From assembly GCA_022843265.1 (NCBI GenBank), contig JALHNZ010000002.1, forward strand, positions 62,001 to 126,000: DNA of 64,000 bases, given 5' to 3'. The position numbers and the translations under genes are program-made. The notes beneath the pieces were generated by a model. It was not told the origin of the DNA. It ran no database searches and was given only the letters and a program-made list of their open reading frames with translations. This DNA comes from Gemmatimonadaceae bacterium (GTDB taxonomy: Bacteria > Gemmatimonadota > Gemmatimonadetes > Gemmatimonadales > Gemmatimonadaceae). Position 1 is the first letter of the stretch, and every line of letters begins with the position of its first letter. Shown here piece after piece: positions 44,589 to 47,374 of this stretch.

Positions 44589-45332
44589 ATGTTTGGTCTT
44601 ATGCAGATCGACGTCGCCGCCCAACTCTCTGGCTCTCCGCTCACCGCCATCCCGCTGCTCTTCGCGGCTGGCGTGCTCACCAGCCTCACCCCCTGCGTCT
44701 ACCCGATGATTCCGATCACGGCTGCGATTGTGGGAGGGCAGAATCTGGGCGGGCCGCCGGACGCGGTGGCACCCAAACCGCCGCGTTGGCGAACCGCCGC
44801 GCTGACCGGCGCGTACGTACTCGGTCTGGCCGCCGTCTACGCTGGCCTGGGACTTCTGGCCGGCCTCACGGGTACGATGTTCGGTGCGGTGAGCAGCAAT
44901 CCGTGGGCCTACTTTGCCATGGCGAACCTGCTCATGCTCGCCGCCTTGTCGATGTTCGACGTGATTCCGGTGCGCCTGCCGTCATTTCTGGTGCAGCGCG
45001 CGGCCACGGCGGGTACCGGCGGGCGGGCGGCGGGTGCCTTCATCATGGGCGCGGCGTCCGGGTTGGTCGCGGCGCCCTGTTCGGCGCCGGTGATGGCCGC
45101 GGTGCTCACGTGGGTGAGCGCAACGCAGAGCGCGGGTCTTGGCTTTGTGTATCTGTTCGCCTTTTCGCTTGGTATGTGTGCACTGCTGGTGATCGTTGGT
45201 CTGTCCGCCGGCACGGTGTCACGATTGCCGCGCGCCGGCATGTGGATGGTGTACGTAAAAAAAGGCTTTGGCATCGTGATGCTCGCGATGGCCGAGTATT
45301 ACCTCATCAAGATGGGACAGGTTTACTTCTGA
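44589..45332 (+). CDS. CcdA/DsbD-type transmembrane thiol reductant carrier
   Basis: 247 aa, six membrane segments. The two redox Cys sit in matching segments SLTPCVYPMIPIT and VAAPCSAPVMAAV, characteristic of the CcdA/DsbD transmembrane domain that passes electrons from cytoplasmic thioredoxin outward. The N-terminal MFGLMQIDVAAQ may be trimmed; several ATGs are close. The TGA overlaps the next ATG by 1 nt, and the next gene encodes an exported thioredoxin, the expected electron acceptor. Confidence 0.93.
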   Translation: MFGLMQIDVAAQLSGSPLTAIPLLFAAGVLTSLTPCVYPMIPITAAIVGGQNLGGPPDAVAPKPPRWRTAALTGAYVLGLAAVYAGLGLLAGLTGTMFGAVSSNPWAYFAMANLLMLAALSMFDVIPVRLPSFLVQRAATAGTGGRAAGAFIMGAASGLVAAPCSAPVMAAVLTWVSATQSAGLGFVYLFAFSLGMCALLVIVGLSAGTVSRLPRAGMWMVYVKKGFGIVMLAMAEYYLIKMGQVYF

Positions 45333-45889
45333 TGCGCTTCGCCCTTCCGGTAGTCCGCCTCTCGCGCTTCGTCATGCGAACCGCGCTGATCACATTTGCT
45401 GCGCTGAGCACTGCCGCGGCCACGCCGATGATCTCCAATACGCTCTACGCGCAGGACCTCGGCATCAAGGTGGGCGCAACGGCACCTGACGCACCACTCG
45501 AAACGCTCGATGGCAAGACCGTGCAGCTCAGCACGCTGATGGCCGGCAAGCCTACGCTGCTCGAGTTCTGGGCCACCTGGTGCGGCAACTGCAAGCAGCT
45601 GGAGCCGGCCATGCTCGCAGCGCACGCGAAGTACAAGGATCGGGTGCAGTTCATCGCCGTCGCGGTTTCGCTCAATCAGAGCGTCGAGCGCGTGAAGGCG
45701 TATCAGGCTCGCTTCAAAGTACCACTCACGTTTCTCTACGATCGACGTGGCGACGCGTCAGAGGCGTATGACGCGCCGGCCACATCGTACGTGGTCCTGA
45801 TCGACAAGGCCGGGAAAGTGGTGTACACCGGGGTGGGTGGCACCCAGAATCTCGACGCCGCGATCGCTAAGGCTTTGGGCGGGCTGTAG
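45332..45889 (+). CDS. Exported TlpA-like thioredoxin
   Basis: ATG 45332 shares a base with the CcdA stop (185 aa). The N-terminal hydrophobic region (TALITFAALSTAAATPMIS) is a signal peptide or anchor. The thioredoxin fold starts VGATAPDAPLETLDGKTVQL and has FWATWCGNCKQLEP (active CGNC), a cis-Pro region APATSYVVLIDKAG and GKVVYTGVG. It probably receives electrons from CcdA and keeps periplasmic or cytochrome c thiols reduced. Its end overlaps the convergent FecR gene by 23 bp. Confidence 0.92.
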   Translation: MRFALPVVRLSRFVMRTALITFAALSTAAATPMISNTLYAQDLGIKVGATAPDAPLETLDGKTVQLSTLMAGKPTLLEFWATWCGNCKQLEPAMLAAHAKYKDRVQFIAVAVSLNQSVERVKAYQARFKVPLTFLYDRRGDASEAYDAPATSYVVLIDKAGKVVYTGVGGTQNLDAAIAKALGGL

Positions 45890-47165
45890 CGTTCGACGGT
45901 GCGGCGTTTGCGCTCGCAGACGCCGCATCACGTAGCACCATTTGCTTCCCCTCGTAGTCTACGCGCAGATTCGCGGCGCGACTGAGTGCATCGAGCGCCT
46001 CGCCGGATGATTCAAGCGTCAGCCGCGCGTTCACCACACGCGTGCCGAGCGAGTCGTGGCTCAGCTGAGCGTCGACATCGTGCCAGCGCCGCAGCTGCGT
46101 CAGTGCCCGCGCCACCGACACGTTCTCGAGGACGAGTTCGCCGTCAACCCACGAGAAGGCCAAGGGCAGTTCCTCCCGCGCCGGCGTGCGCATGCTGCCG
46201 CTACGGGCGATCGCCACGCTCTCGCCTGCCTTCAGCGTGCGTGTTTCAGAAGCACCGGCCGCTACGCGTACGGTACCTTCGCGCACCGTCACCAGCACAT
46301 CCGCTTCGTCGTCGTACGCGCGCACCGTAAACGCCGTTCCGGTTGCCACGATGGAGGTGCCGTGCGCCCGCACTTCAAAGTTGGGTGACTTGTCCGGTGC
46401 GACCACAAAGTGTGCGGCGCCGTCCAGCGAGAGTCCACGGATATCGTTTCCAAATCCGCGCGGCACCCGGAGTGTGCTGCCGGCGGCGAGCTGCGCCGTG
46501 CTTTCGTCGAGCAGCGTAATCGTGCCGCGTTGTCCTGGTGCGGCGCGTAGCACGCGCACGTCTTCTGAATCGAGTGCGCGCGTCAGCGCCAGTTCCGCAC
46601 TGCCGCGATCCATCATGCGCATCGCCACGACAACCGCAATCAGCAGCACGACACCAGTCACGATCATGCCCATCGACAGCTTCTGACCGGCGACGCTGTT
46701 CACGTGCTCGCGCGCGTGTCGCTTGGCCAGCGCGCGCGATTCTTCGCGGTGTTCTTCGCGCTCCGCGTCGGACACATGCAAACGCGTACTGATGGCGTCC
46801 CACGCCTGCGTGGCGGACATACCCTGTTTGGCCGAGGGTGTTGTCACCTGCACGCCTTCGTGCACTTCGAAACGGTGCAACGCCGCACGACGACGCAGCT
46901 CATCGGCGCTACGATGCGGCACTGCCTCTTCGAGATAGTCGTCAAGCGACATGGGCGTCGTGAACGCCGCGCGATCAGTCCACGCACTCAGCAACACACT
47001 CATGGCCACGCGCGGTGCGGCGCTCGAATGTGTGCCGAGATGCTGCTCGGTTTTTTCTACCAGTGGATCGAATCGCGCGAGGACAAGTTGCTCGAACGCG
47101 TGTTCGTCGCCGTTACGAAATGATGCGACGAGTTCCTGCGGCAACGCGGTGATGATCGCGGGCAT
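45867..47165 (-). CDS. FecR-domain membrane protein with ECF-sigma-like N-terminus
   Basis: ATG 47165 has GGGAGG 6 nt upstream, so this start (432 aa) is preferred over an open frame to 47315. Residues 9-80 (LPQELVASFRNGDEHAFEQLVLARFDP, VLLSAWTDRAAF, SLDDYLEEAV) resemble ECF sigma region 2; no region 4 helix-turn-helix is evident. One transmembrane segment follows (MGMIVTGVVLLIAVVVAM, about 165-183), then a FecR domain (LLDESTAQLAAGSTLRVPRG, GLSLDGAAHFVVAPDKSPNFEVRA, VATGTAFTVRAY, TVREGTVRVAAG) and a C-terminal STN-like region (LENVSVARALTQLRRWHDVD). It may be a fused membrane signal transducer, or the sigma-like part may be an anti-sigma-type helical domain. Confidence 0.8.
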   Translation of the reverse strand: MPAIITALPQELVASFRNGDEHAFEQLVLARFDPLVEKTEQHLGTHSSAAPRVAMSVLLSAWTDRAAFTTPMSLDDYLEEAVPHRSADELRRRAALHRFEVHEGVQVTTPSAKQGMSATQAWDAISTRLHVSDAEREEHREESRALAKRHAREHVNSVAGQKLSMGMIVTGVVLLIAVVVAMRMMDRGSAELALTRALDSEDVRVLRAAPGQRGTITLLDESTAQLAAGSTLRVPRGFGNDIRGLSLDGAAHFVVAPDKSPNFEVRAHGTSIVATGTAFTVRAYDDEADVLVTVREGTVRVAAGASETRTLKAGESVAIARSGSMRTPAREELPLAFSWVDGELVLENVSVARALTQLRRWHDVDAQLSHDSLGTRVVNARLTLESSGEALDALSRAANLRVDYEGKQMVLRDAASASANAAPSNATARPKP

Positions 47166-47177: not shown

Positions 47178-47374
47178 GGCATGGAGATGCCGATCGCGTG
47201 GCGCGCGCGTTGGAGTCCTGAAGTACGGTCTCCCCGGTTGACGTGGGACGCGCACGTGGTTCACCATGTGCTCTGCGGCGCGAATGCGCCAGTGGCGGCG
47301 ACACGTTGTCGCCATTGTCGGGATTTGCTCGTCAGCATATCCCCGTCAGTGATTTCCCTACTCGGATAGTGAAC

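Follow-up and report, generated by a model that had tools for sequence, protein, structure and literature searches.

As a rule, a sigma factor and the membrane protein that regulates it are found as a pair. The locus described here raises the question of what remains of such a pair when a sigma-like domain and a FecR-type regulator are found in one protein with no sigma gene beside it. The gene lies in a 64,000-nucleotide stretch of DNA (the window, G000:C2:62001-126000), which is part of the 4.63-Mb genome of a soil-type bacterium of the Gemmatimonadaceae. A preliminary description had read its N-terminus as sigma-70 region 2, noted that region 4 was lacking, and left open whether the protein is a sigma mimic or a fusion replacing the sigma/anti-sigma pair. 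The protein is a real, conserved and unusual variant of the FecR/IutY kind, and we propose below what its sigma-like half may do.

Layout of the protein and identity of its N-terminal domain

The encoded protein is composed, in this order, of a sigma-70 region 2-like (sigma2-like) domain, a linker, one span and a FecR/PupR-type periplasmic part (Table 1). A GGGAGG ribosome site precedes the ATG at 47165, and because nearly all 29 relatives share the aligned start position, most of them with a GGAG-like site, this ATG is taken to be the real start, as had been proposed from the GGGAGG. The frame is open up to a possible longer start at 47315, which we rejected since the relatives begin at the equivalent of 47165 with a ribosome site. 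Apparent internal stops in some relatives are terminal ones, these relatives being single open frames.

Table 1. Features of the gene and its product (window positions)
Feature	Position	Strand	Evidence
Whole gene, 432 aa plus stop	45867..47165	(-)	ORF, Pfam, start kept in relatives with GGGAGG
Sigma-70 region 2-like domain, residues 9-103	46857..47141	(-)	HHalign, NCBIfam, Foldseek, negative controls
DAED beta'-clamp motif position, residues 49-52, here AAPR	47010..47021	(-)	Charge comparison, 78 members vs 19 ECFs
Helical cytoplasmic linker, residues 104-163, conserved W122 and H130, near-invariant H154	46677..46856	(-)	
Single transmembrane span, residues ~165-185	46611..46673	(-)	Hydrophobic run; model helix 165-199
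FecR domain, residues 206-300	46266..46550	(-)	PF04773 E 1.2e-12; Foldseek to 4m0h and PupR 6ovk
C-terminal STN-like subdomain, residues 344-410	45936..46136	(-)	FecR_C borderline; within 6ovk/4m0h match

The Pfam model Sigma70_r2 leaves the window protein below threshold and matches only 5 of 30 relatives; therefore, a plain Pfam scan would overlook the sigma2 domain, and standard annotation of this kind would give a plain “FecR.” Other profiles do recognize it. Several NCBIfam ECF models match the first 122 residues over region 2 with E-values from 6e-5 to 7e-4 (TIGR02983, 6e-5; TIGR02985, 1.5e-4; SigM, 2e-4), and among 30 family members TIGR02985, a Bacteroidetes-type sigma-70 model, matches 25 and TIGR02983 matches 24. 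HHalign aligned residues 8-100 of the family N-terminus with the 19 ECF sigmas of its own genome at 97.6% probability (E 4e-12), and this alignment, together with clean controls, indicates homology to sigma-70 regions 2.1-2.4. With an ECF profile, 29 of 30 family N-termini scored above 10 bits (median, 26 bits); the same profile raised none of 16 ordinary FecR cytoplasmic N-termini above that value (best, 4.3) and none of 900 shuffled sequences (best, 9.2). Chance likeness of helical domains is ruled out by these two controls.

The predicted structure agrees. AlphaFold modeled residues 11-90 with a mean pLDDT of 90-95 per ten-residue block as the helical fold of an ECF sigma2, and the best PDB matches of this domain by Foldseek are ECF sigma2 domains, such as 4lup (sigma-E region 2; TMt 0.82, rmsd 2.3 Å). 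The Foldseek E-values are weak for this part, about 0.1, as expected of a small helical domain, so the structural assignment rests on all top hits being sigma factors and not on the E-values. The assignment of the cytoplasmic domain, residues ~9-103, to sigma-70 region 2 is well supported by profiles and structure prediction together, and here the preliminary description was borne out. It was also right about region 4, which is absent by Pfam, NCBIfam, HHalign and structure prediction; the idea that it is hidden in the linker was dropped, as no profile matches there. The description would have failed had the N-terminus turned out to be an ordinary anti-sigma or an unrelated helical domain, and neither was found: no FecR-type anti-sigma N-terminus is present, sigma2 stands in its place, and the N-termini of ordinary FecR proteins in the phylum are clearly unlike it.

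Beyond the membrane the protein is of a familiar kind. One span followed by a FecR domain had been predicted, and a hydrophobic run and a PF04773 match confirm both; FecR_C is borderline in Pfam (24.3 bits against a cut-off of 24.4). Since the outer half matches two FecR-type regulators of solved structure, 4m0h (E 2e-19) and PupR 6ovk (E 5e-15), we regard it as that of a cell-surface-signaling regulator, with the FecR and C-terminal STN-like periplasmic signaling fold lying behind the single span. The STN-like end named in the preliminary description does exist, and would be better called the PupR/FecR C-terminal signaling domain. The linker is similar to the stretch that precedes the membrane span in ordinary FecR proteins. 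Conserved histidines (window residues 97, 130, 150 and 154, at ~46700-46880) occur at the sigma2 end and in the linker in the motifs LHRFExHE, LHA and H-x-A-x-x-H; they are a possible metal site or membrane-proximal signal.

Distribution, conservation and gene context of the family

A species-level search of genome contigs with one protein gave only one close Gemmatimonas relative, and a family search was then used instead, covering 395 genomes of the phylum. The window bacterium and at least 77 relatives carry the sigma2-FecR protein; the 78 aligned members come one each from 78 Gemmatimonadaceae genomes, with about 23 of 35 sampled genera represented, and no full-length match was found outside this family among the 395 genomes. 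Among named relatives, a Gemmatimonas sp. metagenome-assembled genome is the closest. The family separates from 16 ordinary FecR proteins as a single clade (support 100/100) in a tree built from the periplasmic part. In one genus, five genomes (g20; loci L100-L104; genomes G113, G131, G119, G136 and G358) have orthologues without the sigma2 domain, and because the five form one group nested in the clade, the domain is most simply taken to have been lost once, secondarily. The first residues of these orthologues are a short, His-rich cytoplasmic tail (HHHAHI, for example) that lies immediately ahead of the span. As they keep the rest of the protein, the periplasmic part may have its own job.

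Where it is retained, the sigma2 part is under purifying selection: its dN/dS was 0.09-0.35 in ten relative pairs, comparable to that of the periplasmic part, although these Nei-Gojobori values are approximate, the synonymous sites often being near saturation. W62 (74/78), R65 (76/78) and H154 (77/78) are near-invariant.

The absence of an adjacent sigma gene, noticed earlier at the window locus, extends to the family. None lies near the gene in the window, and in 64 family loci, each viewed over about 3-7 kb on either side (less at contig ends), no cognate ECF gene was found. The only sigma-like genes close to family members are a convergent, opposite-strand ECF-like ORF (L135 4468-5439 (-)) and a sigma of 296 aa that, in one genus, lies 3-4 kb from the gene (L046 3317-4207 (-); L047 11064-11954 (+)). 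For the ordinary FecR proteins examined in the phylum, a nearby ECF gene is present in 16 of 16 cases, both of those in the window genome among them, and nearly all have a typical anti-sigma N-terminus. The two ordinary systems of this genome (L001, G000:C39:28577-31852; L003, G000:C151:1716-5015) each have an ECF sigma gene, divergent in L001, and a TonB-receptor-like gene downstream.

Gene neighbors point to no functional partner, and synteny is limited to the genus and one neighboring genus. Convergent and downstream of the FecR gene in the window lie a CcdA/DsbD-like membrane protein gene (44589-45332) and a thioredoxin-like, TlpA/ResA-like frame, which ends at 45889 so that its 3' end and that of the FecR gene overlap by ~20 bases; relatives of the CcdA/DsbD-like and thioredoxin-like proteins are also encoded near the gene in one neighboring genus (L044). 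Elsewhere the genome has 25 sigma genes, and it encodes 35 TonB plug domains, while STN-bearing receptors are hardly detected by Pfam.

Loss of the polymerase contacts

Whether the sigma2 domain could still work as a sigma factor depends on its contacts with RNA polymerase. In ECF sigma2 domains the acidic DAED motif docks on the beta' clamp and has been called essential for holoenzyme formation (PMC8103513), and the contact between sigma2.2 and beta' is the main interface (PMC4598750). The mean charge at the four DAED positions is -2.2 in the 19 ECFs of the genome and +1.1 in the 78 family members, all of which have a net charge of at least 0 there and 71 of at least +1; none is negative. Position 52, acidic in 19 of 19 ECFs, is R or K in 71 of 78 members and never acidic. 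The Q that follows the motif in 89% of ECFs is kept in 4 of 78 members, and the D or E found after DAED in 95% of ECFs is mostly lost. In region 2.4, the N position (N in 74% of ECFs) is mostly H, E, G or Q in the family, and the D position is mostly R. We also considered core binding switched by phosphorylation, as in ECF43, and saw no indication of it: S, T or Y occurs at the four DAED positions in only 20 of 78 members, and at none of them in the window protein.

Having neither sigma4 nor an acidic DAED motif, the family protein is, as far as its sequence tells, very unlikely to be a working sigma factor. Because the polymerase-contact motif is lost, it would probably signal by imitating a sigma factor and not by acting as one. 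Of the two possibilities raised in the preliminary description, the mimic is thus favored, whereas a fusion that still does the sigma's job is not supported, the DAED motif, the region 2.4 residues and sigma4 all being lost.

Origin, proposed mechanism and meaning

In the sigma2 tree, the family groups with the FecR-linked sigmas, on the FecI side, and a branch with support 97/94 sets the genome's 17 other ECFs apart; a closer placement to FecI has weak support (88/47, 96 columns). Descent from a FecI-type sigma is thereby partly shown at the level of sequence. An ancestral FecI-FecR fusion, an arrangement kept by IutY, that later lost sigma4 and its polymerase contacts is the most likely origin. 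The simplest history would run from this fusion through the loss of sigma4 and the anti-sigma domain to the loss of the polymerase contact, after which one lineage would have dropped sigma2; no intermediate with an intact DAED motif is present among the 78 members.

The precedent for such a fusion is IutY of Pseudomonas putida, a sigma/anti-sigma fusion (PMC5411451, PMC9249621). Like the family, IutY (ECF243) has a cytoplasmic sigma part, one span and a FecR-like periplasmic part in a single polypeptide; unlike it, IutY has both sigma2 and sigma4, becomes an active sigma after cleavage by Prc and RseP, and works with the receptor IutA. The family has neither sigma4, and hence no complete sigma fused to FecR as an IutY-type hybrid demands, nor the polymerase-contact motif, nor a linked receptor or regulon gene. 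With the FecR/PupR anti-sigma regulators it shares the transmembrane topology and the periplasmic fold seen in PupR 6ovk and 4m0h, but sigma2 replaces the cytoplasmic anti-sigma domain and no sigma gene is adjacent. ECF48, ECF52, ECF53 and other ECF-anti-sigma fusions likewise hold a membrane-tethered sigma part in one polypeptide; these, however, are described as ECF sigmas with zinc-finger anti-sigma extensions, not with FecR and not as sigma2 remnants. Sigma mimicry itself has a precedent in PhyR (PMC4598750) of the alphaproteobacterial general stress response, in which a sigma-like domain is not used as a sigma, as shown for PhyR and as we infer here. PhyR is soluble and combines a receiver domain that is phosphorylated with parts resembling sigma2 and sigma4, whereas the family protein is membrane-bound, with sigma2 only and a FecR sensor. 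The open-access papers searched included none on FecR-sigma fusions in Gemmatimonadota.

Based on these comparisons, we propose that the protein is a FecR-type transmembrane regulator whose pseudo-sigma2 derives from a FecI-FecR fusion and has been kept as a protein-interaction module, a reading to which we give a probability of about one-half. The periplasmic FecR/STN-like part would receive a signal, the probable source being a TonB-type receptor whose gene lies elsewhere, and the protein may then be cleaved or rearranged; the genome has a site-2 protease gene (G000:C9:86537-87649). The pseudo-sigma2 could thereupon bind, or release, a natural partner of an ECF sigma2. By analogy with PhyR (PMC4598750), the simplest partner would be an anti-sigma domain belonging to a different system, in which case the level of free sigma would change. 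More tentatively, and with less than even odds in our estimate, the protein may be classed as a transmembrane sigma mimic, in which the FecR sensor would use a FecI-type sigma2 without polymerase binding as its anti-anti-sigma, or competing, domain.

The loss of sigma2 in one lineage that kept the rest also fits a different account, in which the periplasmic part does the work, for instance by serving as a scaffold or as the partner of a receptor, while the sigma2 remnant is only a stable anchor or dimerization piece in the cytoplasm with no role in transcription. The disappearance of the residues specific to sigma function and the lack of a linked sigma speak for it too. An idle anchor, however, sits poorly with purifying selection on sigma2 about equal to that on the periplasmic part, with near-invariant W62, R65 and H154 across 78 members, and with retention in about 23 genera; we consider this account somewhat improbable, though it has to be taken seriously. 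The same loss of sigma function would leave little room for a working fusion of the IutY type, in which a minimal sigma2, released by cleavage, would bind RNA polymerase and a -10 element. The order of parts is that of IutY minus sigma4 (PMC9249621) and the predicted sigma2 fold is intact, but with DAED lost in 78 of 78 members and charge-reversed in 71, the region 2.4 N and D gone, no sigma4, and no indication of ECF43-type activation by phosphorylation, we hold this to be highly improbable.

The position of sigma2, exactly where FecR proteins carry their anti-sigma domain, suggests a further possibility, namely an anti-sigma built from sigma2 that binds sigma4, or occupies the anti-sigma site, of an unlinked ECF sigma, holding the captured sigma at the membrane until a signal arrives, as with ordinary FecR. 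To our knowledge, no anti-sigma uses the sigma2 fold, and no cognate sigma is linked in the loci examined; we therefore think this unlikely, even though the 25 sigma genes elsewhere in the genome could offer targets and the sigma4 of FecI is known to be bound by FecR (PMC9249621).

With the pseudo-sigma2 regarded as an interaction module, what is usually a pair is reduced to a single protein, in which the sigma half is hardly workable as a sigma and yet is conserved across a bacterial family. Separate FecI and FecR, IutY with a full sigma, the present proteins with sigma2 only and those that have lost sigma2 form a natural series, in which the change of a transcription factor into a signaling module can be studied. 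The findings suggest that PhyR-like sigma mimicry may also occur in a membrane-bound form. If the protein is indeed such a mimic, it would represent a class of transmembrane sigma mimics not described before, and one standalone gene of the Gemmatimonadaceae, lacking any cognate sigma, would couple a signal from the periplasm to sigma traffic.
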